Source: Verrucomicrobiota bacterium
Lineage (GTDB): Bacteria > Verrucomicrobiota > Kiritimatiellia > Kiritimatiellales > Pontiellaceae
NCBI GenBank assembly: GCA_024279685.1
Contig: JAJRRI010000140.1
Span: 1 to 35,135 of the forward strand
DNA: 35,135 nucleotides
Reading direction: 5' to 3'
A program made the translations under genes and the position numbers. Shown one piece after another: positions 4,494-33,542 of this stretch. The notes under the pieces are model-generated. The model had not been told where the DNA came from. It saw only the letters and a list, made by a program, of their open reading frames with translations, and did no database searches. How positions within the stretch are numbered: the first letter of the stretch is position 1; the number at the start of each line of letters is the position of its first letter.

Positions 4494-5206
4494 ATGACAC
4501 CTGAAAAACTAGTGAAAGAACTTAAGCAGGCCTGCCCGGCCGGGCTCAAGTCGGTGATTCTTTATGGGTCGGCGGCGGCGGGGGATCGGGTAGAGAAAAA
4601 GTCCGACTATAACGTGTTGGTGGTGACCGAAGATCTGGGGCTTGGAACGCTCAATGCCATTTCGAAAGCCGTGTCCGCATGGGCGAAGGCGGGCAATCCT
4701 GCGCCCATGCTTTTTACGAAGGAGCGCCTGGCACAAGCGACCGACGTATTCCCGATCGAGCTGCTCGATATCCGCGAGTGCCATACCGTTCTGCACGGCG
4801 AGGATTTGGTTGAAGGGCTGGAGATCGACACAAAAAACTTGCGGCTGGAAATCGAGCACCAGCTGCGCGGCCAGCTGATCCGCCTGCGGCAGAGTTATTT
4901 ACTCACCCAAGGAAAACCCAGGGCCGTGGCCGATTTAATGACCCAGTCGCTTTCGACTTTTCTGGTGCTGTTCCGGGCGGCGCTACGTCTGTTTGAGCAG
5001 GAAGTTCCGCAAAAAAAATGGAAGCTCTCGAAAAACTAGCGACGCATTTGGAATTCGATCGATCTGTTTTCGAGACGGTACAGGACTTGAAAGACGGAAC
5101 GAAAAAAGCGAAGGATGTTGCGGTCGACGAGCTATTCAATACCTATCTTATTACTGTGGAGCGCGTCATCGATGCGGTCGACGCTTACCTTCATAAAGGA
5201 GAATAA
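4494..5206 (+). CDS. Nucleotidyltransferase-like protein, interrupted by a -1 frame change at an A8 tract (ORFs 4494..5039 and 5018..5206)
   Basis: Frame 1 has the NTase signature LYGSAAAGDRVEKKSDYNVLVV and ends shortly after the A8 run. The second ORF (MEALEKLATHLEFDR...) starts inside the A8 run and continues as a plausible helical C-terminus (VPQKK-MEALEKL). Confidence 0.7.
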
Positions 5207-5209
5207 ATT

Positions 5210-5782
5210 ATGAAAATTGTACTCATCACCGTGGGCGCTCTGCTCGCGATTCTCGTTGTTTTTATCATGATGTTTGTTGGGGTGAATAATAAAATTATTG
5301 ATCGTGACGAAGCTGCGATTCAGGCGTGGGCGAATGTAGAAACCGTATTGCAACGCCGCTATGATCTAATCCCGAACCTCGTCAATACGGTCAAAGGGTT
5401 CGCGAGCCACGAGAAAGAATTGCTCACGGAAGTTACCCGCTTGCGGAGTCAGTGGGGTGCGGCCAAGTCCGCTGGAAATAATGCTCAGAGTGTTAAAACA
5501 GCCGGTATGCTCGAAGGCGCGCTCGGTCGTCTGATGGTGGTGGTTGAAAAATATCCGGACATTAAATCCAACCAAAATTTTCTCGCGCTACAGGAAGAGC
5601 TATCGGGAACCGAAAATCGGATCTCCGTCGAGCGCCGCCGCTATAACGAGGCGGTTGCCGCGTACAATAAATACATTCGGAAATATCCCGGATCGATTCT
5701 TGCCGGCATGAAAGGCTACGAACGTAAGACCCCGTTTGAATCTGCGCCCGAGGCTGCTGCCGCACCGGTGGTGGAATTTTAG
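5210..5782 (+). CDS. lemA: LemA family protein
   Basis: N-terminal TM, then NKIIDRDEAAIQAWANVETVLQRRYDLIPNLVNTVKGFASHEKELLTEVTRLR...ENRISVERRRYNEAVAAYN, the classic LemA motif. Confidence 0.95.
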   Translation: MKIVLITVGALLAILVVFIMMFVGVNNKIIDRDEAAIQAWANVETVLQRRYDLIPNLVNTVKGFASHEKELLTEVTRLRSQWGAAKSAGNNAQSVKTAGMLEGALGRLMVVVEKYPDIKSNQNFLALQEELSGTENRISVERRRYNEAVAAYNKYIRKYPGSILAGMKGYERKTPFESAPEAAAAPVVEF

Positions 5783-5823
5783 CCGAGAACGAGAAGGCCG
5801 GTTTTTTTAATTTTGAGATTATT

Positions 5824-6363
5824 ATGACACTACAATGGATTGCACTTATTTTGGGTGGTTTAGCAACGGCGGGCGGATTAGTTGGCGTGTTGCGACCGGA
5901 GCTGATCAAACGCTTTGCCGAGTGGTTTCCGCGGAGCACGATTCCCGCATGGATCCTCACCGCGTTCTGCTGTGTGCTTGGAGCGAAAGAAGCTTTAGGC
6001 ATGAATATGGGCTTCCTCGATGCGTATAAGAACTATATTTTCGTCCTCTCGCCTGTGGTCTTCATCGCTTGTGTCGTCTATATAAAAGAGCTGCTTGCGC
6101 CGCGTGCATTGGGTGGATTTCTGTTACTCATTGCGGTGCCCATTTTACAGGTCGCCCGCTGGCAGGAATCGGCTTGGCGGTTGGTGGTGGTGATTCTCGT
6201 CTACCTTTGGATCGTCTATGGCCTCGTGCTGCTGATGTCGCCGTGGTGGTTCCGAAAAACGTATGCCCCGCTCATGGAAAATTCCGCGCGTCTAAAGACC
6301 GTAGCTTATGCGAAGACGGCCCTAGGCATTGTGCTCCTGCTGCTTGGCCTTTTTATCTACTAA
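5824..6363 (+). CDS. Multi-spanning membrane protein of unknown function
   Basis: Good start context and several hydrophobic segments. Its stop overlaps the convergent kinase stop (6360-6363). Confidence 0.65.
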   Translation: MTLQWIALILGGLATAGGLVGVLRPELIKRFAEWFPRSTIPAWILTAFCCVLGAKEALGMNMGFLDAYKNYIFVLSPVVFIACVVYIKELLAPRALGGFLLLIAVPILQVARWQESAWRLVVVILVYLWIVYGLVLLMSPWWFRKTYAPLMENSARLKTVAYAKTALGIVLLLLGLFIY

Positions 6364-9300: not shown

Positions 9301-10493
9301 GAGCGGAGCTTGGTCAGATTCTTCGACGAGTCGGTCGGAGTCATGAACGAGAGCGAGCTTTGGCCAATCACTTGGTGGGGTTCGTGGCCAAGGATATCGC
9401 GTACGCGGGGGCTAACGTAAGTATAGCATCCCAGTCGATCCATCTCCCAGATCATGTCGTTTGACGATTCCACGAGCGCGCGGAAGCGCTCCTCGCTCAC
9501 GTCGAGCGCGCGGGTGGCTTGCCGGTGGCTATGCTGAGCACGGCCAAGCTCATGGGTGCGGTGGAGCACCTGTCGCTTTAGAATTCGGTTCCAGAATATG
9601 AATGATCCGATGGCCAATAAGGTGGCCAGAAGGATCCCGCCGATAATCTGTAGATAACGGTCTCGCGGGATAATGACCGTGTCGCTCAGCGTAATCCATT
9701 CGCGGCGGATCATCCGGCGCTGCTTCTGGGCAATATTCGAGAGCGCCTTATCGAGCATGGAGTTCAATAGTGGCCAATCCTTGCGCGATGCGAGGCAGAG
9801 CTCCCACGGATAATCGATGTCGCCGGCAACGCGTAAATTCGAAATGCCCAGCTCTTCGATGTAGTACGATGCCACGCCCAAATCCGCCACCATGGCATCG
9901 ACATCCTGGAAGGAAACCATCCGGAAGCCGGTGGCGGCATCCTTAACCGGAACAAATGTATACTCAGGGTGGAGTTTGGTCAGGTAGCTATGTGTGGCGG
10001 AGCCATCGACGATTGCCACACGGAGATCGTCGAATGAGTCCGCCGAGAAATGACCTTTCACTTCCTTTCGGACTAAAATGACATTTGGGATGCGCAGATA
10101 GGGTTTGGTAAAGCGCAAGAACTCGCGGCGCTCCGCGGTGTTCTGAATCGAGCCAACGAGGTCAATGTCTTTGGATTCGAGCCTTTTGATAATCTCTTTC
10201 CAGCTGTCGAGCCGGACGGGGATAAAACGGACGCCCAGCTGTTGTTCAATCAGCCGAATATAGTCGGCCGTTAGGCCGCGGTGGTTTCCGCCTTGGTCGG
10301 TAAAGTCGATCGGCGGGGAATCCGGTAGAGGGGCAAAGTAGATTTCGTGGCCCTTCTGTTTCAGCCAGTCGCGTTCTTCTGGGGTGAGCTCGACCTTTCG
10401 GAGGCTATAGGCTTCCGAAAAATACATCACAGCGCCTACAGCGAGTAAGGAGCCTAGAATGGAAAATAGAATGGAGCGTAGATCAAACTTCAT
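6360..10493 (-). CDS. Membrane-bound multi-PAS/GAF sensor histidine kinase with N-terminal periplasmic SBP_bac_3-like domain
   Basis: N-terminal TM, then an SBP_bac_3-like region (GLTADYIRLIEQQLGVRFIPVRLDSWKEIIKRLESKDIDLVGSIQNTAERREFLRFTKPYL). Several PAS units, a GAF-like segment, HisKA H-box GMAHEINNPLAGI, and HATPase NLVSNSAQAM...DNGPGM...GTGLGLSVS. Likely start is the ATG at 10493 (MKFDLRSILF). Confidence 0.93.
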   Translation of the reverse strand: MKFDLRSILFSILGSLLAVGAVMYFSEAYSLRKVELTPEERDWLKQKGHEIYFAPLPDSPPIDFTDQGGNHRGLTADYIRLIEQQLGVRFIPVRLDSWKEIIKRLESKDIDLVGSIQNTAERREFLRFTKPYLRIPNVILVRKEVKGHFSADSFDDLRVAIVDGSATHSYLTKLHPEYTFVPVKDAATGFRMVSFQDVDAMVADLGVASYYIEELGISNLRVAGDIDYPWELCLASRKDWPLLNSMLDKALSNIAQKQRRMIRREWITLSDTVIIPRDRYLQIIGGILLATLLAIGSFIFWNRILKRQVLHRTHELGRAQHSHRQATRALDVSEERFRALVESSNDMIWEMDRLGCYTYVSPRVRDILGHEPHQVIGQSSLSFMTPTDSSKNLTKLRSANPATVIDCEISLHIHKDGHQIILETSGMAFTDNTGQLAGFRGITRDITARTEAEAALKQSEERFRNLVETTSDWIWEVDPEGHYTYASPQVGNLLGYTPSELLGQRFTKTMPEKEGETMKTLFADIATHGAPIHSLVNINQHKDGRTVVLETSAVPFYDKDWNIQGYRGIARDITERMEIEKQLEFERNLFRSFMEHAPDLIYFKDSDGRFIEVNAAKATEVHLPPEEIIGKTEFDFLPHAQAQQQLDDELEIMRSEKPLQKEEFCSTPSGDRWYLTTKVPRYDEHGKVVGTFGTSWNITLRKQATEELRNLRAQLSNIIDSMPSILVGVDLFGHITQWNREAERASGIQAAEASGQPLKGAFPQLSRQMIKVERAIRERATQKEERIPEYKDGHTRYTDITVYPLLENDAKGAVIRVDDVTERVLIEDSIRNIVEGVSSVGHQFFNSMVAQLAKSLDADFTFISKTNDGAPDTMRTIAVSANGKVGENFDYPLDSTPCKQVMDGKICVCISDVRERFPDTQMLKKLGISSYIGIPLVDSESRSHGCMVAMYKSPIQNLDFSTSIMQVFAGRTAAELERLQATKELLTLRNLLSNIINSMPSILVGVDAENRVTQWNREAETITGILAEQAQGQPLDQVFPNLGEEMNRIIEAIGNRKLQHDEHIPCTIGNEQRFTDVTVYPITTDGDDGAVIRVDDVTDRVRIEEMMVQSEKMMSVGGLAAGMAHEINNPLAGILQNLQVMQNRITHNTERNLSAAEAAGTSLAAIQAYMEDRGLLKMMDSVTEAGRRAAKIVDNMLSCSRKEESHFELNNLAELLERSLELASNDYNLKKRFDFRHIRIDRDFDPTLGPIPCESSQIQQVILNLVSNSAQAMIDHPDPSQEPLITLRLKKEAAMVLIEVEDNGPGMDEEMRKRAFEPFFTTKEVGHGTGLGLSVSYFIITENHGGTMRLVSSPGKGACFSIRIPYEHRKTKWGLRY

Positions 10494-11709: not shown

Positions 11710-13116
11710 TTATTTTTCCTTCGCGGGCGATAGGCGCAGGATGGTGCCGGGGTCGTTAAGGACCACGTAGATGGCGCCGTCGGGGCCACAAACCACATCG
11801 CGGACGCGCCCCGCCTTTTGGAGAATAATCTCTTCGTGTATGACGCGGTTATTTTCGAGGTGTAGCAGGCGGACATCTTCATATTTAAGTGATCCCACGA
11901 GCAACTTGTTGTTCCATTTGGGAAAGAGCTCGCCGTGGTAGAAGTCGATTCCGCAGACGGCGGCGGACGGGGTCCAGTAAAAGACGGGTTGTTCCATACC
12001 TTTCCTGCGAACGAGGTCGGTGATGGGGGTGCCGTTGTAGTTTTTTCCATAGGTGATAATAGGCCAGCCATAGTTGAGCCCCGACTGGATGAGGTTGAGT
12101 TCATCGCCTCCCTTCGGGCCATGTTCGGTACTCCAGAGCTGGTCGGTATCGGGATGGAAGGCAAGCCCTTGTGGATTGCGGTTTCCGTAGGAAAAGATGG
12201 AGGGCAGGGCGGTTTTGTTGCGGCGGAATGGATTGTGGCGGGGGATGGATCCATCCCGCCGGATGCGGTGAATTTTTCCATTGGGTTTGGAGAGATCCTG
12301 GGCGTGGGCTCCCGTGCCGCGATCGCCAATGCTGAAGTAGAGGTCGCCTTTGGCATCAAATACAATTCGGGTTCCGTAGTGTTGGCGGGTGGTGCGGTAG
12401 CTTTCGTGCGGCGACTCGAAAAGAATCTCTTCATCAACCCACTGGTTGCCATGGATGCGGCCGCGTACGACCTTTGTCATGGCGGGGGCGCGTTTCCCGT
12501 TGGGTTGGATTTTTAGTCCGTGGCTGTAGGCGAGATAGACCCACTGGTTATCTTCGGCGGCATAGTCGGGGGCGAACGCGACGGCGAGCAAGCCGCCTTG
12601 ACCTTCGGCGAGAACGGTAGGCGTTTCTGCAACCGGCTTGGAATGCAGGCGCCCGTTTTCAATCACGCGTAAACGACCTGCCCGTTCGGTAACAAGTGCC
12701 GTATTTTGATCGATAAACGCGAGGCTCCATGGAATCTCCAACCCCTTCGCCCAGACTTCGACGTTGATTTTATAGTCGAGTGTATGGAGCATTTTTAGAA
12801 GGGGAGCGGCGACGGTTCGTTCTTTTTTTGCAGGGCCGCGGAGGTAGGTTGTGATCTGCCGGATTTGAGGATCCGTCAACGTATCTCCGAAGGCGGGCAT
12901 GCCAAGGTGGGGAAGGCCCTTCTTGGTGTTCCAATCGATGTGCTCGGGGGGGCCGCCAAACTGCCAGATATCGTCGACGAGGCTTTGCGCACTTCCGCCC
13001 TGGCACTGGTTCCCATGGCAACTGGCGCAGTGGGTTTGGTAGAGCTGAGCGGCCTCCTGACTAAATGAGAGCAGGCGGGCAAAGAGGAGGAGAGTAAGTA
13101 TAAGGAGCGACTTCAT
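11710..13116 (-). CDS. PQQ-dependent sugar (aldose/sorbosone) dehydrogenase with N-terminal cytochrome c domain
   Basis: Signal peptide, then cytochrome c CASCHG...GMPAFGDTLTDPQIRQITTYLRG, followed by GSDH motifs (LEIPWSLAFIDQNTALVTERAGRLRVIE, GQGGLLAVAFAPDY, NRNPQGLAFHPDTDQLWSTEHGPKGGDELN). Confidence 0.92.
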   Translation of the reverse strand: MKSLLILTLLLFARLLSFSQEAAQLYQTHCASCHGNQCQGGSAQSLVDDIWQFGGPPEHIDWNTKKGLPHLGMPAFGDTLTDPQIRQITTYLRGPAKKERTVAAPLLKMLHTLDYKINVEVWAKGLEIPWSLAFIDQNTALVTERAGRLRVIENGRLHSKPVAETPTVLAEGQGGLLAVAFAPDYAAEDNQWVYLAYSHGLKIQPNGKRAPAMTKVVRGRIHGNQWVDEEILFESPHESYRTTRQHYGTRIVFDAKGDLYFSIGDRGTGAHAQDLSKPNGKIHRIRRDGSIPRHNPFRRNKTALPSIFSYGNRNPQGLAFHPDTDQLWSTEHGPKGGDELNLIQSGLNYGWPIITYGKNYNGTPITDLVRRKGMEQPVFYWTPSAAVCGIDFYHGELFPKWNNKLLVGSLKYEDVRLLHLENNRVIHEEIILQKAGRVRDVVCGPDGAIYVVLNDPGTILRLSPAKEK

Positions 13117-13275
13117 GTCGACGACTGTGCACTTTATTGGATGGCATCACCACCGGAAAATAAAAAACCTATCCCTTCAGGCGGAACCTATTTTTCGCCG
13201 GACGAAGTGCTTGTGATGGGGAGGAATATTCGATAAACAAATGCCTTTAGAAGATTTAATTAAGGGGAGTCAATA

Positions 13276-13791
13276 ATGAATACATATGGGTTGAAAGTTC
13301 TTAAACTCGTGGCGTTGGCGACGGTTAGCTGTGGCAGTATAAATGCACTCGCCTCTTCTCCAGAGAAACATGACGGGCATGAGTCAAGTGATGTGGAGGT
13401 GGGTCTCTCGATTGGCTATACCTATTTAAAGGAAGAAAAAGAAGAGGGCGCGACTCTTCATCTGCATGTTATGAAGAAACTGACTGACGAAGGCTTTGGC
13501 CAATATTTTTCTTACGGCGTGGGTGTAGAAACCATTATTTTAAAAGAATCCCATTATGGAGCAATGGTTACATTAGCGGTAAACCCGTGGCGCGATTTGA
13601 TTTTGTCTGTTTCACCCGGAATTGAATGGGTCAAGCATGAGGGGGAGTGGGAATCAGGGTATGCGACACATTTTGAAGTAACCTATCTTTTTGAAGGGCC
13701 CCGTTTTCATTACGGCCCCGTACTGGGCTATGCTAAAACTCAAGATGCACAGCATTATACGGCGGGGATTCATTTCGGCATACCGCTTTAA
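13276..13791 (+). CDS. Small secreted/outer-membrane beta-barrel-like protein
   Basis: Signal peptide followed by alternating beta-strand pattern ([15 protein letters not shown]...[15 protein letters not shown]...[23 protein letters not shown]...GIHFGIPL). Confidence 0.6.
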
Positions 13792-13844
13792 AAAACAGAT
13801 ATCCGAGAAGGGTCAAAGCATTTGGCATTCAACAGGAGATTAGA

Positions 13845-14426
13845 ATGGCGTTTACATTGAGTATTGAAGCACCGGCTCCGCCGTTTAACGTACCGGCAAC
13901 GGATGGAAAGAACTATACCTTGGCGGATTTTGACGATGCGAAGGTGCTGGTGATTTTTTTTACCTGCAACCACTGCCCCTATGTAATTGGGTCGGATGAA
14001 AATACACGGGCGCTTGCCGAGCGATTTTCCGATCAAGGCGTACGTTTCGTAGCGATCAACTCGAATAGCAAGAATACCTACGCGGAAGACGATTTCGACC
14101 ACATGGTGGCGCGAATGCAGAAGCATCAATTTCCTTGGATTTACTTATACGACGAATCGCAATCCATCGCCGCGTCCTATGGGGCATTAGTTACCCCCCA
14201 TTTTTATGTGTTCGATGAGGCTCGAAGGCTAATCTATACCGGACGATCCATCGACTCCCCGCGCGCCTCTGAGAATTCTACGACCCACGAGTTAGCGGAT
14301 GCGCTTGAAGAGTATTTGGCCGAAGGTCTCGTTCGCGTATCAGTAACCAACCCGATTGGGTGTAATGTAAAGTGGGATGGCAAGGAGCGGCACTGGATGC
14401 CTCCAGAGGCATGTGACTTGGCTTGA
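13845..14426 (+). CDS. Thioredoxin/AhpC-TSA (redoxin) family protein
   Basis: [41 protein letters not shown]...[26 protein letters not shown]. Confidence 0.88.
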
Positions 14427-14569
14427 TTCATGCTGTTTGTGGTGCCTGTAGATAATTAGAGGTTCGAGAAAAACTATTTTCTCGATTAGAGAGTTTGAAT
14501 TTAAAAATTCTCTCTATATAGTGACCGTGTTTTTATAGAAAGTATTCGTTTAACTAGAAGGAGTAAGAG

Positions 14570-23496: not shown

Positions 23497-23668
23497 GACG
23501 AGTGAAGGGTCGATCTGTTCGGGGTGCACCTGGGTTTACGAGGGATTTAGGTCAGCATTGGATTAGTTAAAAAAAATCCGTATGCGGCCAGTGAACATGA
23601 GGGTGCAGGGAATGAATCCTCGGAAGCTCTAATTGTATAAAACTGAAAGAATGACAGAATTTAAGGGT

Positions 23669-23683
23669 TGGCTTGGAACATGC
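23669..23683 (+). promoter_or_regulatory. Sigma54-like -24/-12 candidate upstream of the Ig-repeat gene
   Basis: TGGCTTGGAACATGC has canonical GG-to-GC spacing and lies ~105 bp upstream of the likely start at 23789. Confidence 0.35.
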
Positions 23684-23788
23684 TATTTATTCCAACCCGT
23701 GCGAATGCTTCGATTCGGGGCCGGTGATCGGTGGGCGAGGCAACTCTTGGGGCGGGAGCGCATGCAACTTGAATTCAGGAAAGAAGTG

Positions 23789-25447
23789 ATGAGAAAATAT
23801 ATTAACCATAGGAGAAAAGCTGGAGTCCTGTCTTCCGCGCTGATGGCCCTGGCTTTAGCCGCGGCAAGTGTGGCTATGGCCGCTCCGCCGCCCCCTGCCG
23901 GTCCGCCCACACCGATCTTGACTGGTCTGGCCATTTCAGGACCTTCAGAAGTTGATATGGGGTCACCCGCCTCGTTTTCCTGCGTTGGGATCTATTCCGA
24001 CGGGTCTAGTAGCGCGTTGAATCCAGTTTGGGGCGTAGACACGTCCGATGCCGCTATATCGAGTTCCGGCCTACTAACGGTAGCCAATATTTCCTCCGAC
24101 CGAAGTGCCTCTGTACGGGCAGATTACGCTGGGTTTACCGCCACACTGAATATCACCCTTGTATATATTGCGCCGGTGTTAACCGGGATCACAATTAACG
24201 GCGCTTCGGTGATTAATGAGGAAACTTCGGTGCAGTATAGTTGCCTAGCCACCTATTCAGATGGTTCCAGCGGGCTCGTTTTTCCGGCATGGGGTGAAAA
24301 TTCCCCGAGCACAACCATCAGCGCCTCAGGATTACTGAGTGCTGGGGCGATCTCTTCCGACCAAAATGTGACGCTTACTGCAAGTTATGGTGGGAAAAGC
24401 GATACGCACGCCGTAGTCGTCAAGTATGTCCCTCCGGCGGTGCTAAGCCTTGTAATTTTAGGGCCATCGAACATGAATGAAGGGACCCTCGCTCAGTTTG
24501 TTTGTAGGGCGACCTATGCGGATGGTTCGACTGCGGTGGTGACTCCAGTTTGGGGTGAAAACTCTTCTAGTACGATCATCAGTTCGATGGGATGGTTACG
24601 GGCAGGTGATCTTTTGAGAGATCAGAGTGTAGTCGTTTCGGCCAGTTTTGGTGGAAAATTTGATACGCATGCGGTGATCATCAAGTATATTCCACCGACG
24701 CTAAGCGGCATCGTGATTTCGGGGCCGACACGAGTTAACGAGGAGACGTCGGCACAGTATGTCTGTACGGCACACTATTCGGATGGAACAAGCGCGTCCG
24801 TTTCAGCAAGCTGGAGCGAAAACTCTCTCTTTACCTCCTTGAGCGCCTCCGGTGTACTGACGGCCGGAAACGTGGAATCCGATCAAACGGTAACGATTAC
24901 AGTAAATTTTGAAGGAAAGAGCGATACGCTTTCGGTTGTAGTGGCTCACGTCGCCCCTCCTGTAACGCTAACGACTCTCACCCTTGCTGGGCCGAGTATC
25001 GTGGAAGAAAATAGCACGGCCCACTACGTCTGTACGGCGTATTATTCCGACGGAAGCCAGAAGGTGGTCGCCGCCACATGGAGTGAGAACTCAGCTTTTG
25101 CTTCGATGAACGGATTTGGAATTCTCGATGTCAAAAATGTAGCCGCCGACGAAACCGTCACTGTAACAGCGAGCTTTGAGGGGAAAATTGGAGCGTTATT
25201 GGTTGCCATACAGGCTATCGGTGATCAAGTCATTTTCCCGTTAACTGGATTTGAGGGAAAAATAGTTTCCGCTGAGCTTTGGGACGAGACGGCCCAGGAA
25301 ATGACGGATTTGGGTCAGGACACTTCGCCGAAGGAACTGGTGATCGAGAACGTGAACCCTGGCCAGTGGTATTGGTTGGGTGTGCGTGAGTTCGACGAAG
25401 CATCGGGCGAATGGACGTTGGTATATGGCGGTTGGATGATCCTGTAG
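23789..25447 (+). CDS. Secreted protein with five tandem Ig-like (Big-type) repeats and a C-terminal WDE...WYWxG domain
   Basis: Start MRKYINHRRKAGVLSSALMALALAAASVAMAA preceded by an AGGAAAG RBS. Five ~86-aa repeats (ISGPS...E..SAQYVCTAxYSDGSS...W.ENS...IS.SGLL.AG...SDQ.VT..ASF.GK.DT). The upstream ORF extension to 23633 is probably 5' UTR. Confidence 0.85.
   Translation: MRKYINHRRKAGVLSSALMALALAAASVAMAAPPPPAGPPTPILTGLAISGPSEVDMGSPASFSCVGIYSDGSSSALNPVWGVDTSDAAISSSGLLTVANISSDRSASVRADYAGFTATLNITLVYIAPVLTGITINGASVINEETSVQYSCLATYSDGSSGLVFPAWGENSPSTTISASGLLSAGAISSDQNVTLTASYGGKSDTHAVVVKYVPPAVLSLVILGPSNMNEGTLAQFVCRATYADGSTAVVTPVWGENSSSTIISSMGWLRAGDLLRDQSVVVSASFGGKFDTHAVIIKYIPPTLSGIVISGPTRVNEETSAQYVCTAHYSDGTSASVSASWSENSLFTSLSASGVLTAGNVESDQTVTITVNFEGKSDTLSVVVAHVAPPVTLTTLTLAGPSIVEENSTAHYVCTAYYSDGSQKVVAATWSENSAFASMNGFGILDVKNVAADETVTVTASFEGKIGALLVAIQAIGDQVIFPLTGFEGKIVSAELWDETAQEMTDLGQDTSPKELVIENVNPGQWYWLGVREFDEASGEWTLVYGGWMIL
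23912..25220 (+). repeat. Five tandem ~258-bp coding repeats (Ig-like modules)
   Basis: Five aligned modules, each with an (F/Y)xC...Y(S/A)DGS motif, identified by reading the translation. The nucleotide sequence has diverged. Confidence 0.85.
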
Positions 25448-25472
25448 GTTTTTATTTAAAGTGAGGTGTGAA

Positions 25473-25769
25473 ATGAAAAAAGTATTATGTGCATTACTGA
25501 TTGGTATGGTGACGGTTAATTCCTTTTCAGGGCAGATTGGACTTCCTGAAGAAAGGATCGCGCTGCCGGCAGTTCAGGGCGATTATCTGATCTGTATTTG
25601 GGATGAAACAACGGGGGCTTGGCTCGGAGAATTCGAGGCCTACGACCACACGGGTTCATATGGATTTCAGCTTCCTGCATGGGAAGAGTGGTATTGGATT
25701 GGTCTTTGGGATGTGGCCCGCCAGGAATATGTATTTGAAAAGTGGATCGGGCACTTTATAACGGATTAA
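25473..25769 (+). CDS. Small secreted protein consisting mainly of the WDE...WYWxG domain
   Basis: Signal peptide MKKVLCALLIGMVTVNSFSG, then YLICIWDETTGAWLGEF...EEWYWIGLWDVARQEYVFEKWIGHFITD, similar to the C-terminus of the preceding protein. Confidence 0.75.
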   Translation: MKKVLCALLIGMVTVNSFSGQIGLPEERIALPAVQGDYLICIWDETTGAWLGEFEAYDHTGSYGFQLPAWEEWYWIGLWDVARQEYVFEKWIGHFITD

Positions 25770-25783
25770 CGGGAGTTGATGAC

Positions 25784-26224
25784 ATGAACTCAACGCAGTC
25801 TATTTGCGCAATGCTGGCGATTGCCCTGACTTCAGGGTGTGCATCCACCCACAATATGAACGGCCCGCGCGGTCCAAAAATTGTGGGGTCGGGCTATTCA
25901 ACAGAATCGGGGCAATATGCGGAAATTGGGGTGGAGTTTTCATCGGTCGGTGATTTCTTTTCGATCGTTTCCCCCAAACGGTGGAAGTCGCCCATGACGA
26001 CTGGCGGTACGCTTTCATGGCTTAATCCGGCAGCATGGAGCGATGATGCCGGTCGTACCGGCCGCATTTTGATTGGCCAAGCGGTGATCGTGGGCGGCGT
26101 AGCCGTTGCGGCTACTGCAGGAGGAGGTGGAAGTTCCGGTGATTCAGTAAGCAGTCCTGTCGGCGGGCCTTCGGCTCCTCCGCCTCCGCCTCCGCCTCCG
26201 GGGGGTGGCCCTGGGGGGCCTTAA
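25784..26224 (+). CDS. Lipoprotein with polyproline C-terminal tail
   Basis: MNSTQSICAMLAIALTSGCAS lipobox; C-terminus GGPSAPPPPPPPPGGGPGGP. Confidence 0.7.
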   Translation: MNSTQSICAMLAIALTSGCASTHNMNGPRGPKIVGSGYSTESGQYAEIGVEFSSVGDFFSIVSPKRWKSPMTTGGTLSWLNPAAWSDDAGRTGRILIGQAVIVGGVAVAATAGGGGSSGDSVSSPVGGPSAPPPPPPPPGGGPGGP

Positions 26225-26342: not shown

Positions 26343-26987
26343 ATGTTGCACAGGTTTTTTCAGGGCATTTTTAGGTTGGCGATTTGTGGAGGTGCACTTT
26401 TAGTGGGGTGCACAACCTCACATCACGGGTTTTTAGAAAACGATGAGCCTCAAGCCGCCCTTTCCAGTAAACTTTCTCCCGGCGATACGATCGAAGTTTC
26501 GATTGAGGTAGGTGGAAACATGGAGGTGGTCTCTCATGTGGCACAGATCAATCCACAGGGTGTGGTGATCCTTCCGCTGGTGGGCGATGTGAAAATTTCT
26601 GGGAGTACGCTGGAAGCGGCGCGGCAGATCATTGCTCAAACCTATGGAACCTATTATGTACATCCCCCCTTGGTCATGCTTTCATTAACGACGAGCTCGG
26701 AGGACGGAGGATGGGGGGCCGTGACCGTGATGGGGCGCGTTGTTCGTCCGGGGCGGGTTCCGCTGCGCAACCAGCAGGGCATGAATCTTACCGAGGTTAT
26801 TCAGCAAGTCGGTGGTTTTGCAGTCAGTGCAAAGAAGAGCGGAATACAAGTGTCGCGAACGGATAAAACGGGGGATAAGAAGAGAGTGTCGGTTAATTAT
26901 GATGCGATCGGAAAGGGAGGCGACGCCTCGGCCGATATTAAATTGATTGCTGGGGATATTGTTTATGTTCCAGAGCGGATATTCTAG
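26343..26987 (+). CDS. Polysaccharide export protein (Wza-like, Poly_export/SLBB), lipoprotein
   Basis: Lipobox ALLVGC; KLSPGDTIEVSIEVGGNMEVVSHVAQINPQGVVILPLVGDVKISGSTLEAARQIIAQTYGTYYVHPPLVML; VTVMGRVVRPGRVPLRNQQGMNLTEVIQQVGGF; C-terminal IAGDIVYVPERIF. Confidence 0.92.
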   Translation: MLHRFFQGIFRLAICGGALLVGCTTSHHGFLENDEPQAALSSKLSPGDTIEVSIEVGGNMEVVSHVAQINPQGVVILPLVGDVKISGSTLEAARQIIAQTYGTYYVHPPLVMLSLTTSSEDGGWGAVTVMGRVVRPGRVPLRNQQGMNLTEVIQQVGGFAVSAKKSGIQVSRTDKTGDKKRVSVNYDAIGKGGDASADIKLIAGDIVYVPERIF

Positions 26988-28162: not shown

Positions 28163-28259
28163 ACCCGAAAAAAACACCAGTTAAATTAGATGGTATTTTT
28201 ACTAAATACGCCGTATTATGGACAACTTACATTTAAAAAATAAACTTCGAGGAGTTGAA

Positions 28260-29387
28260 ATGAATAAAAAACTACAAAGAATCTCCATAGCCATTTTGGC
28301 TTTGAGTGTGGGGGGCGGGACGGCACTCGCGATTGATTTTGTAAATATAGGTAACGCCGGAAATGCGGCGGATAGTACGGGCTATGGTAGCGTGGGATAT
28401 AACTATCAGATCAGCCGAGCAGAAATCACAATCGCTCAGTTTGCCGCCAGCGGAGTCGGAAATGGTAACGAGGGCATCGGAATCGATCCTAACGCGCCTG
28501 TCACGCGGGTCAGTTGGTCCGAAGCGGCTCAATATGCCAACTGGCTTACGAGTGCCAATATGAATAATGGAGCCTATACGATCACGGGCGGTCTAGTAAC
28601 CGCTGTGGACCGAGCGACTGCGATAACAACGTATGGAACCGTTTATGTGCTTCCCACTGAGGATGAGTGGTATAAGGCGGCCTACTTCACGGGCAGTGGA
28701 TACTCCCTCTATGCAAATGGAACGGCAACGCCTCCTGGCGTAGGGGATGCCAACTGGAATACCGGAGGGGCTTGGATCGTGGGAAGCGGAGCGGTCGAAC
28801 AGAACGGTACGGTGGATCTGATGGGCAATGTCTGGGAATGGACCGAAAGCGCAGTTGATGGAAATTTTGACACTATCGGAGAAGATATTGCTTTCCGGGG
28901 CACGAGCTATTTTCAGAGTAACACGGCTTTAATGAAATCCTCCGAACGCGCTACAGATGATCCAACGCTTGAGCATCCGTCGGTCGGCGTGCGGATTGTA
29001 GCTATTCCGGAGCCAGGAACCATTAGCCTGATGAGCTTAAGCACCATCAGCCTATTCCTTACTCGCACCTTGCGTCGCCGCAAGGTGGCTGGGACAAGTT
29101 TACTTCCCATTGGGCGTGAGTATTCCTGTGACGTCTTTATTCAAGAGGAAATCGTGGCCGGTGATGAATCAGATTACTGGGATGAATGCCGAGTGGAGTT
29201 CATCCGAGGGCTCTCTCTGATGGGGCAGCGTATTCATTCGGTCTATGCGAAAATACAAAAATTATTTTGGAATCGTATGGTGGTGGTGCATGATCTAAAA
29301 GTGGAACGCCGGAAGGCCTTTCGGACAAACCTCAAGCAACAGAGCTTGGTTCGTCTCGATGCCTTTTTAGCCCGCATTATGAAGTAA
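28260..29387 (+). CDS. PEP-CTERM protein with SUMF1/FGE-sulfatase-like domain and a ~100-aa C-terminal extension
   Basis: GAGGAG RBS before the ATG at 28260. SUMF1-like VTRVSWSEAAQYANWLTS...YVLPTEDEWYKAAYF...VDLMGNVWEWTES...RGTSYF. PEP-CTERM-like IPEPGTISLMSLSTISLFLTRTLRRRK followed by about 100 further residues. Confidence 0.85.
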   Translation: MNKKLQRISIAILALSVGGGTALAIDFVNIGNAGNAADSTGYGSVGYNYQISRAEITIAQFAASGVGNGNEGIGIDPNAPVTRVSWSEAAQYANWLTSANMNNGAYTITGGLVTAVDRATAITTYGTVYVLPTEDEWYKAAYFTGSGYSLYANGTATPPGVGDANWNTGGAWIVGSGAVEQNGTVDLMGNVWEWTESAVDGNFDTIGEDIAFRGTSYFQSNTALMKSSERATDDPTLEHPSVGVRIVAIPEPGTISLMSLSTISLFLTRTLRRRKVAGTSLLPIGREYSCDVFIQEEIVAGDESDYWDECRVEFIRGLSLMGQRIHSVYAKIQKLFWNRMVVVHDLKVERRKAFRTNLKQQSLVRLDAFLARIMK

Positions 29388-29687: not shown

Positions 29688-31925
29688 ATGGACGCTAAAA
29701 ATATATATCAAGGTGGTCAGGCAAGAACTCTATCTGGAGGCGGTATAGGGAAAGATCCTGTAGCTAAAGGGAGGCTCGCACCCTTGAACTTACTCCGCAT
29801 CGTTTTTCAACGGTGGCCGCTAGTGGCTATTTTCACAGTGTTCGGGGCTCTTTTTGGGATACTTTATGCCCAATGGGCAACTCCAATCTACGAAGCGGCT
29901 GCCGATTTGGAAATGAGTGTGCGCCGCCCCAAGGTCATCAACAACGACGCATTTATCGAAGAGGGAGGCGTTCGTGATGAGGATATTGTCTTCAATACTC
30001 GCTTTGCTAAATTTAGGTCCCCGGCTATGGAGCAGTTGGCCACCCATGAATACTTTAAAGAATATCCTGCTGATGGTCTTTCTGGAGGGCGATTCGAAGG
30101 CAACCCAGATGGATTGGCCATCCTCATTAGAGATGTATATTGGAGGAAAGATTCACGGGCAAATATTGTCCGTGTATCTTACCAAAGTGCGGACCCTGTA
30201 TTTGCAGCGCAGCTGGTGAACGTGATGACCGATTGCGCAGGTGTACTGATGATGCGGGAAAACCAGGAATTATCTGACGAGGCGGTTAAGTGGTTGATCT
30301 CGCAAGTAGAGGATCAACGCGAGTTGCTCGAAGAGGTTGAAAAGCAGCTAGCGGCCATTCGTAAAGATCTTTATCTTGATTCGCTCGAGCAGCGAAAAAT
30401 CGCGCTAGGCCAATCCCTTACAGCGGTGTATCAGGAGCGTGAGGCCTTGAACAGCACCTTGGCGTCTCGTAAAACCGTGTATGACTTTGTTTCTGAGCTT
30501 AAAGACACGGATACTAATCTAGAGATCCTTCCGACGGGTCTACCTAAGGAAGAGCAGCTAAATGAATTAATCCGCACGTGGAAGGCGGCTCACACCGAGC
30601 TTCTTCTCGCGAAAGATCGTTTTACGGACCTTCATCCTGAACATCGGAAGGCTGAAGAAAAAGAAGCGCGTGCTCAAGGGCAGTTGAAGCAGTTCATCTC
30701 ATTGTCCTCGCAAGCCATTTTAAATGAAATAGAACTCTTGGGTAAGCAAGTGGCGCAGGTGGATGAGCGTATTGAGGCCATGAAGCATGAGTCGCTGGAG
30801 TTAGGCACCCAACTCGAGGTGGGTATGCAGCGGCTCCAGCGGTTGGAGCGGAAGCGGGATGCCTCTGACACAGCTTACCAGACGATACTTCGGCGGATGG
30901 AGGAAGCTCGCTTGTCCGCTGATGAAAATATGGCCTATACGAAAGTGATTCGCGATGCGTCTATTCCTCGAATCCCCGTGCACCCTAGTAAGATGCGTGC
31001 GGTAGTTATGAGTATTATTTTAGGGTTATTTGCGGGAAGTGGAATGGCCATTGCCTTGGCGTTTATCCTGGATAAAATTGAAGCGGTGAACGACCTGAAG
31101 TCGCTTAATTTGAAAATTCTAGGCATTATTCCTCCGCAGGAAAATATAGATTCTCGGGAAGAACTGGCCACGATTGGTTTACGATACAACTTTAACCATA
31201 TGGTGGAAATTTTTTCAGGGATTAACTCGCTGATTTCCTCGGATAAATATAAGGGTGATACAAAAGTTATTTTGATGAACAGCGTTATGCCTGGGGAGGG
31301 TAAGACGATTTCGGCCTGCAACCTAGCCATCAGTTCAGCGCTCAATGGGTCAAAAACTCTATTGATTGACGGCGATCTGCGTAAGCCACAGTTGGCTAAA
31401 ATTTTTAAGGTCGATGAAAATCACCCCTCCCTACTCGATTGGTTGTCAGGCAGAGCCACTGGGTTGGCTCTCGATCAATTAGTTTGCAAGGAAATGATTG
31501 AGAATTTAGATGTGGTCACAAGCAGGCCGCTAAGAAAAGTTAACCCCGCTGAATTATTAGGGCGACGACCCTTGGGCGAATTATTGTGCTGGGCCCGTGA
31601 GCATTATGATCGGGTTATTATCGACTCGCCGCCGATTGGGCCGGTGGGTGACGCTCAGGTGTTAGCCAACCATGCTGACTCGGTTATCATGGTTTCTCGG
31701 ATTGGTAAAACTCGGCGGCGGGCCCTTAAATTTGCACTGGCTCGTTTCGGTGAAATTGATGCTCATATTTTAGGGTGTATCGCCAATGATGTTCCGCGCT
31801 CTCTCTCGGGTCTATTTGGTGGAGCCGAAGGGTATGGCTATGGCTATGGGTATGGGGAGAGTTATGCTTCATATGGACGAGACGAGGATGAAGACTGGAT
31901 CGATAAACCCCAACCAGAGCAATAG
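29688..31925 (+). CDS. Polysaccharide co-polymerase/BY-type tyrosine autokinase (Wzc-like)
   Basis: Wzz-like N-terminus with TM and coiled coil; Walker A VMPGEGKTISACNLA, Walker A' LLIDGDLRKPQ, VIIDSPPIGPVGDAQ; Tyr-rich tail YGYGYGYGESYASYG. Confidence 0.95.
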   Translation: MDAKNIYQGGQARTLSGGGIGKDPVAKGRLAPLNLLRIVFQRWPLVAIFTVFGALFGILYAQWATPIYEAAADLEMSVRRPKVINNDAFIEEGGVRDEDIVFNTRFAKFRSPAMEQLATHEYFKEYPADGLSGGRFEGNPDGLAILIRDVYWRKDSRANIVRVSYQSADPVFAAQLVNVMTDCAGVLMMRENQELSDEAVKWLISQVEDQRELLEEVEKQLAAIRKDLYLDSLEQRKIALGQSLTAVYQEREALNSTLASRKTVYDFVSELKDTDTNLEILPTGLPKEEQLNELIRTWKAAHTELLLAKDRFTDLHPEHRKAEEKEARAQGQLKQFISLSSQAILNEIELLGKQVAQVDERIEAMKHESLELGTQLEVGMQRLQRLERKRDASDTAYQTILRRMEEARLSADENMAYTKVIRDASIPRIPVHPSKMRAVVMSIILGLFAGSGMAIALAFILDKIEAVNDLKSLNLKILGIIPPQENIDSREELATIGLRYNFNHMVEIFSGINSLISSDKYKGDTKVILMNSVMPGEGKTISACNLAISSALNGSKTLLIDGDLRKPQLAKIFKVDENHPSLLDWLSGRATGLALDQLVCKEMIENLDVVTSRPLRKVNPAELLGRRPLGELLCWAREHYDRVIIDSPPIGPVGDAQVLANHADSVIMVSRIGKTRRRALKFALARFGEIDAHILGCIANDVPRSLSGLFGGAEGYGYGYGYGESYASYGRDEDEDWIDKPQPEQ

Positions 31926-32021: not shown

Positions 32022-33542
32022 ATGTCCGATTTTAAAGCAGATAGTAGTATTAAACGCGTGGCCAAAAATGGAGTCTTTATGGGGCTTCGATTTGGGCTAT
32101 ATGCGCTATCTGGAATAATATTCATTCCTTTTTTAGTCAAGCAGTATGGGTCTGGGTCTTATGGACTGATCGCCTTAGCTGGTTTTTTAACTCAGTATAT
32201 TGGCTTACTTTCAGGCTGTGTAGGGAGCTCCGTTGGGCGCTTCATGAACATCGCGCTCAATAAAAATGATTGGCAACAAGCCAATGAAATATTCAGTACC
32301 GCGATCGTTGCGAATCTCGTATTTGTTCTGGTTCAAATCCCTCTCTTTGCTCTGGCGGTTTGGAAGCTGGAGTTGATTATCGACTTTCCGCCGGACCAGG
32401 CGAAGGATTTTCGGATCCTCGTTGGGTGCAACATCGCGGTCTTTTTTATTGCGATCTTAAAAGGGGTGATCTTTACACCGATTTTGGCGGCTAATCGGCT
32501 GGATATTAATGCCAAATTTGATATCTATAGGCAGATCGCCCGCTTGATTCTTTTGATTGCGTTAATTTTATCCTTAGGGCCTTACCTATGGATTATAGGA
32601 GTGGTTGATCTCGCTCTTTCGTTGGTTATGTGGGCGGCAGGCTACAAAATATGTCGCAAAATGGTTCGCGGGAAATTAACTTTCAAACGGCGATATATTT
32701 GCTGGAAATGGGTGAAGCCGGTCATGAATATGGCGGGCTGGAGTATTGTGGCGAGTATGGGGCAGGCGCTCTTCCTGCAAACGGACATTTGGGTGATCAA
32801 CCGCTTTGTAAGTATGGAATTGGCGGGAGTATGCGCCGCACTTTTGCTGTGGCCTAATTTTGTGCAACAGATTGCAAAAAATATTACGTCGCTGATTCTC
32901 CCGGTTATCATCATTGACTATGCCCATGGGCGGTTTGAACGAATTCAGGATGTGGTTATGTTCTTTAGCCGCATGTTTAGCATTTTGGCCATTTTTGTAT
33001 GCGGGTTTTTAATGATTTGGGGCGGAGATTTATTAGAAATTTGGATGGGTGCTGATTACCGGAAGTATCATTTACTATTGGTTCTCATGCTTTTGCATTT
33101 TCCTCTGACCTTGGCGCGAGAAGCCATTTGGGGAGTCTTTCCCGCATACAATAAAATGCACTATTTGGGTATTTCGAATTTGGTGAGCGGTTGTTTGAAT
33201 GTGGGCTTATCGCTTTTAGCCGTTTATTATGGATATGGGCTGATTGGAGTGGTGCTTGCGACAGGGATAAGCCTGATTCTTCAGCGAACCGTATTTATTT
33301 CTCTGTTTGTCGTGAAAATGCTTAAAATTCATTGGGTCCGACTTTTTAAATGCTATGTGCCAGGAGGTTTGGTTGTCGCTTTATTTCTCTTCCAATGGAT
33401 CGCTTTCAATAATGTATACTTTATACAAGCAGGGGTGATTTCCATTGTGATTGGCCTGCTGTTTTGTGTGGAGGTTTTTGTCCGCGAAAAGGAAAGTCGA
33501 GTCGCTATAAAATCAATTTTTTCGAACATAACTAATAAGTAG
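32022..33542 (+). CDS. Wzx-like oligosaccharide flippase / polysaccharide biosynthesis membrane protein
   Basis: About 12 hydrophobic segments; N-terminus KRVAKNGVFMGLRFGLYALSGIIFIPFLVKQYGSGSYGLIALAGFLTQYIGL. Confidence 0.9.
   Translation: MSDFKADSSIKRVAKNGVFMGLRFGLYALSGIIFIPFLVKQYGSGSYGLIALAGFLTQYIGLLSGCVGSSVGRFMNIALNKNDWQQANEIFSTAIVANLVFVLVQIPLFALAVWKLELIIDFPPDQAKDFRILVGCNIAVFFIAILKGVIFTPILAANRLDINAKFDIYRQIARLILLIALILSLGPYLWIIGVVDLALSLVMWAAGYKICRKMVRGKLTFKRRYICWKWVKPVMNMAGWSIVASMGQALFLQTDIWVINRFVSMELAGVCAALLLWPNFVQQIAKNITSLILPVIIIDYAHGRFERIQDVVMFFSRMFSILAIFVCGFLMIWGGDLLEIWMGADYRKYHLLLVLMLLHFPLTLAREAIWGVFPAYNKMHYLGISNLVSGCLNVGLSLLAVYYGYGLIGVVLATGISLILQRTVFISLFVVKMLKIHWVRLFKCYVPGGLVVALFLFQWIAFNNVYFIQAGVISIVIGLLFCVEVFVREKESRVAIKSIFSNITNK

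Follow-up and report, generated by a model that had tools for sequence, protein, structure and literature searches.

A small Trp-rich domain family of predicted FN3-like fold, encoded as a split gene pair at exopolysaccharide loci of Pontiellaceae and as a fused C-terminal tail in other families of Kiritimatiellae

In Vibrio cholerae, the secreted FN3-domain matrix protein RbmA binds exopolysaccharide (PMC5605196). Glycan recognition has also been proposed for DUF5648, a domain folded as a three-bladed propeller (PMC12853789). Cultured Pontiella produce N-sulfated, glycosaminoglycan-like exopolymers, and Pontiellaceae break down algal and sulfated polysaccharides (PMC7356697). Here we describe a pair of domains, C and S, encoded in a 35,135-nt contig (JAJRRI010000140.1, hereafter the window) of the 2.69 Mb genome of a marine Kiritimatiellales bacterium. 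A contig scan of a public genome set returned Pontiella and other Pontiellaceae/Kiritimatiellales as its nearest relatives. The predicted secreted beta-sandwich proteins of interest are mostly encoded together with exopolysaccharide genes and have signal peptide-like N-termini.

The first gene of the pair (23633..25447, + strand) is a 604-aa ORF from a TTG codon; the likely start is the ATG at 23789, which is followed by a signal peptide. Its product is a stalk of about five Big_2/Big_4-like repeats closed by domain C (25217..25444, + strand), a Trp-rich beta-sandwich formed by the last ~76 residues. The second gene (25473..25769, + strand) encodes a small protein of 98 aa from ATG, consisting of a signal peptide and a single domain, S (25533..25766, + strand), which makes up the mature protein and is also predicted to be a beta-sandwich. 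The frame is open from a GTG at 25461 (25461-25769), the ATG at 25473 being the more likely start. The stalk repeats of the window protein scored just below the Big_4 cut-off (20.5 vs. 22.1), and those of homologues exceeded the cut-offs (Big_4, 37.6 and 56.2; Big_2, 24.7). By fold, they matched the Big_2 repeats of LigA (Foldseek, E = 7.6e-7). Both sequence and fold thus assign them to the Big_2/Big_4 bacterial Ig-like repeats. Each Ig repeat of the stalk (23789-25216) contains one conserved cysteine, and S has one invariant cysteine, located in a strand (25533-25766). Unpaired cysteines in the secreted stalk and S proteins are compatible with an anaerobe.

The first-pass annotation had proposed that the C-terminus of the Ig-repeat protein and its small neighbour share a domain. 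This proved real: the peptides that it quoted lie where it placed them, and profile comparison establishes that C and S are homologous. An initial hhalign comparison of 17 C with 22 S sequences gave E = 1.2e-6. The S-C alignment scored 36.9; 200 column shuffles averaged 11.6 and never exceeded 20.4, and the reversed profile gave 17.1. With enlarged profiles the score rose to 50.2 (E = 7.6e-10). The S profile matched a C domain at 5e-9 (Z = 1000). When a 20-sequence S profile was run against all six frames of the whole genome, it retrieved S and then, at E ≤ 0.01, only the adjoining C domain (E = 0.0024; 6e-7 for C in another genome). Reciprocally, a C profile built without S sequences matched S genes in nine genomes, with E values from 6e-8 to 1e-3. 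Neither S nor C resembled the adjacent Ig repeat in profile comparison.

Because FN3 and Ig folds are widespread and short strands rich in Trp are easily similar, two unrelated beta-sandwiches might have come to share similar WDE...WYW strands by chance or convergence. The shuffle control and the reciprocal matches at genome scale speak against such an origin, as do the agreement in strand order along the alignment and the dissimilarity of the neighbouring Ig domain, and we consider it very improbable. C and S are distinct subfamilies of one small Trp-rich, predicted FN3-like beta-sandwich, a distinction that is new here.

Both domains were modelled with AlphaFold2 at high confidence (S: mean pLDDT 95.1, pTM 0.82; last Ig repeat plus C: mean pLDDT 94.4, pTM 0.61). 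The main strands of the two models occur in matching order when read along the alignment, agreement having been assessed by strand positions; C and S are predicted to share one FN3-like beta-sandwich fold. The best PDB fold matches of S in Foldseek were FN3 domains, with TM values of 0.60-0.69 and E no better than 0.028. For Ig plus C, the matches comprised Leptospira Lig repeats, a Big_2-CBM56 tandem and Ig-FN3 tandems, and a Foldseek search against viral proteins gave generic FN3-like matches only. Searches of Pfam, NCBIfam and PDB sequences returned no related family for S or C, in line with the earlier failure to recognise a named one. The Fibronectin type III model (PF00041) matched neither domain at an E cut-off of 10, the best Pfam hit for C (PF25059, E = 0.12) was far below its cut-off, and no curated CBM family matched S or C by sequence. 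The predicted fold belongs to the widespread FN3/Ig-like type, yet no sequence family searched fits, and the domain family is undescribed at the level of these databases. The first-pass annotation had named two outcomes that would refute it, a known Pfam domain matching both proteins and models without structural similarity; neither arose in these sequence searches and predictions.

Ten of the 19 invariant positions of S are aromatic. Judged from strand alternation in the model, Y54, I56 and L58 would belong to the core, and W53, W55 and W59, together with W23, would lie on the other face. The WDE...WYW motif first given for the domain is about right for this species and too narrow for the family: the fused relatives described below often lack one W of WYW, namely the first in C (QRYWLSV) and, in S, the second (NRWYRLEV). 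Conservation of S is similar to that of Wzc and exceeds that of the remaining operon proteins compared.

At E ≤ 0.01, the S profile matched 28 of 347 genomes of the class: 20 from the same genus, counting the window's own genome, two from the same order, three from other families (G048, G342 and G343) and three with weak matches. The C profile had matches in 27 class genomes, and C was present in 24 of the 25 genomes with stronger S matches, the exception being G011, in which S sits at the edge of its contig. A search with the C profile across 390 genomes of the phylum found matches in the same genus and order only and none outside Kiritimatiellales; a wide Verrucomicrobiota family was accordingly rejected at this sensitivity. 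Phyla beyond Verrucomicrobiota were covered by the contig scan alone, which picks up close relatives. The C/S family was thus found only in the class Kiritimatiellae, mainly in Pontiellaceae. S-like tails following DUF5648 in another Kiritimatiellae family (L084, L085, L138; E = 7e-6 to 0.007) were left out of the member counts as weak, partial matches. In one genome (G006), C ends a protein of 253 aa that begins with a membrane segment and contains a coiled coil (L122, G006:C79, 4305-5066); S was not found in this genome.

The pairing of the two genes is tight. In all 19 loci having both domains, the C stop and the S start are separated by 12-30 nt. Downstream of S in the window, a small putative lipoprotein (25784..26224, + strand) has an ALTSGC lipobox, a hydrophobic Gly-rich segment and a Pro/Gly-rich tail. 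The genes that follow encode a polysaccharide export protein with Poly_export and SLBB domains (26343..26987, + strand; nearest NCBIfam model TIGR03027, below its cut-off), an outer-membrane barrel-like protein that is kept across the locus and weakly resembles TIGR03016 (27029..28162, + strand), a SUMF1-like protein (28218-29387), a Wzc-like chain-length determinant/tyrosine autokinase (29688..31925, + strand) and a polytopic membrane protein with about 13 hydrophobic segments (32022..33542, + strand). The last is kept in polysaccharide loci and has no Pfam match. The operon order is Poly_export, barrel, SUMF1-like protein, Wzc, polytopic membrane protein and acyltransferase. No riboswitch or other upstream RNA element was found, the only RNA being a tRNA elsewhere in the window. 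The SUMF1-like protein contains a PEP-CTERM-like segment, VAIPEPGTISLMSLSTISLFLTRTLRRRK, which is followed by about 100 more residues and is not the protein end; in this genome the extension possibly reflects a lost stop codon or a frameshift.

Among 20 homologous loci in public genomes, 14 contain a clear polysaccharide export gene, in most cases accompanied by at least one of the genes for the outer-membrane barrel and the Wzc-like kinase. As for the remainder, L068 has distant versions, L060 and L079 end at contig ends, and three lack a polysaccharide locus, namely L062, where S occurs alone, and L077 and L078, which are IgC-S copies located elsewhere. The small putative lipoprotein gene usually follows S, including in L078, outside the polysaccharide locus, and in G035. 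The L077 copy has transposase-like ORFs nearby (4968-6005, 12958-14490) and L078 a different gene neighbourhood, which suggests that the IgC-S pair can move as a unit.

In other families of the class, the two domains are found on one chain. In G048 and G343, the order is C followed by S with ~20-25 residues between them, and S forms the end of the protein. The four fused carriers are a 1854-aa S8 subtilase (L080), a 951-aa C-type lectin protein, a GDSL protein of 833 aa and a GLUG protein of 1262 aa, and in all four DUF5648 directly precedes C. In G342, a C-S tandem lies in a 197-aa open frame without a convincing start. The association with DUF5648 is not strict, since a DUF5648 protein of G048 (L137) ends without a C-S tail. 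The unusual part is that the same module is split into two genes in Pontiellaceae and carried on a single chain in other families. Of all the observations, this fusion argues most strongly for joint action of the two window genes. The original description of two copies of one module holds as far as the shared domain is concerned; it is incomplete in that the copies are not interchangeable but are two subfamilies with a fixed order, joined in a tail elsewhere, one of which (C) also occurs on beta-helix enzymes.

A tail that always forms the very C-terminal end of secreted proteins otherwise unrelated to each other could also be a sorting or secretion signal for an unknown export machine. This role is made less likely by the Pontiellaceae, where S is secreted alone with its own signal peptide, and by the lack of matches to known sorting-domain families: curated models of C-terminal sorting domains (PEP-CTERM, Por-type tails etc.) matched neither S nor the Ig-C protein. 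Furthermore, the tail is restricted to a subset of the secreted proteins in these genomes. We regard a sorting function as improbable.

Domain C is not confined to stalks. It also terminates beta-helix proteins of ~1000 aa that belong to the lyase/epimerase family PF12708; the two tested (L119 and L121) both scored over the cut-off of this model. In several relatives, these genes sit between Wzc and the polytopic membrane protein. The genome of the window itself encodes, on another contig, a second C-type domain (L118, G000:C46, 9429-11930, minus strand), which closes a beta-helix lyase/epimerase-like protein cut by the contig end. In L060 and L075, a beta-helix head opens the Ig-C protein itself, and the N-terminal region of the L070 protein looks the same by eye. 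Across L060-L079, the Ig-C protein ranges from ~480 to 1620 aa according to the number of repeats and the presence or absence of the beta-helix head, and the lengths of C and S remain constant.

Such enzyme heads would also suit a reading in which C and S were carbohydrate-binding modules for external, e.g. algal, polysaccharide, and the stalk a food-particle adhesin rather than a slime component. The known degradation of algal and sulfated polysaccharides by Pontiellaceae (PMC7356697) and the copies outside the export locus are in keeping with this possibility, which is nevertheless distinctly unlikely in our estimate, as most copies go with export genes and not with degradation loci. A PF13469 sulfotransferase is encoded within the polysaccharide locus of G004 (L125, G004:C130:13558-14094), and in P. 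sulfatireligans PF13469 genes occur at a distance of about 9 kb from its second IgC-S pair (L077, -1 to 748, 9980-10294). Their position near or in these loci would fit sulfation of the exopolymer handled there; no PF13469 sulfotransferase was found in the window's own genome.

Several genomes combine one S gene with two or more C-bearing proteins. Together with the strict gene adjacency and the C-S fusion elsewhere, this would be consistent with S and C binding each other, S capping or docking the C end of stalks and enzymes, with glycan contact secondary or absent. A mirror-tree test showed no covariation of S and C rates (r = 0.05, partial 0.04), and S occurs without a neighbouring C in L062. 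Direct S-C binding is therefore kept as a separate explanation, the mirror-tree test lending no support to contact, and appears unlikely. We also consider it unlikely that S is a shared diffusible docking partner, one S gene serving several C-tailed proteins (stalk and beta-helix enzymes) of a cell. This would be a cohesin/dockerin-like two-part system built from two copies of one beta-sandwich, related to the C-S tail by fission or fusion, whose task would be to assemble a bacterial slime layer that is possibly glycosaminoglycan-like.

The pair usually lies beside exopolysaccharide-export genes and recurs as fused tails, and may hold surface proteins in the cell's own slime layer. We tentatively propose as the likeliest of the readings, with a probability of roughly 0.45, that C and S form a C-terminal docking module by which stalks and enzymes would be retained in exopolysaccharide of the cell's own making, and which is split into two genes in Pontiellaceae. 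In some families, a single chain runs from a glycan-recognition-type domain through C, a linker and S to its end. In Pontiellaceae, C closes a stalk of Big_2 type, which in some cases has a beta-helix enzyme as its head, and S is encoded separately as a secreted protein by the gene that follows, where the operon for exopolysaccharide export begins. The two domains, together or side by side, may bind the exopolysaccharide exported by the operon through an exposed Trp face, and stalks and polysaccharide-modifying enzymes would thereby be held in the cell's own slime layer.

This docking role is supported by the fixed C-S adjacency, the fusion after DUF5648, the export-operon position and the aromatic positions of S, as well as by C on beta-helix lyase/epimerase-like proteins, the fold likeness to Big_2-CBM56, the RbmA analogue and the exopolymers of Pontiella. 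Counting against it are the absent S-C covariation, the copies outside the locus (L077, L078), the solitary S of L062, the partial loss of Trp in fused relatives and the modest Foldseek E value of S (no better than 0.028). The surface or glycan role suggested at first fits the gene context and is retained as putative, the fold itself being of a common kind.

The analysis defines an undescribed domain family that is a fused tail in some lineages and in others a split pair. It also links this family to exopolysaccharide loci in Pontiellaceae, for whose exopolymers few assembly genes have been described. Should the module bind exopolymer, S and C could serve as small probes that are simple to produce, and beta-helix proteins with a C tail would be prime candidates for modifying enzymes.

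Several described systems resemble parts of this arrangement. FN3 (PF00041) shares the predicted beta-sandwich and supplies the best PDB fold matches of S, at E no better than 0.028, but C and S are shorter (~75 residues) and have no sequence match to it at E ≤ 10. The Big_2-CBM56 tandem of a Paenibacillus enzyme (7quz, 7r3t) likewise places a C-terminal beta-sandwich after a Big_2-type repeat and matches Ig plus C at E = 1.8e-6 with TM values of 0.35-0.39, a match that derives partly from the Ig half; unlike CBM56, C and S have no sequence match to any CBM family. The Big_2 repeats of Leptospira LigA/LigB (8gyr, 2mog) resemble the stalk repeats in fold, and their match covers these repeats. 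DUF5648 (PF18885) adjoins C-S in the fused relatives, near the C-terminus of secreted proteins, but has a different fold and is absent from the window pair. By role, RbmA would be a working analogue, exopolysaccharide binding by C and S being putative; it differs in having no C/S split, no stalk and no enzyme heads.
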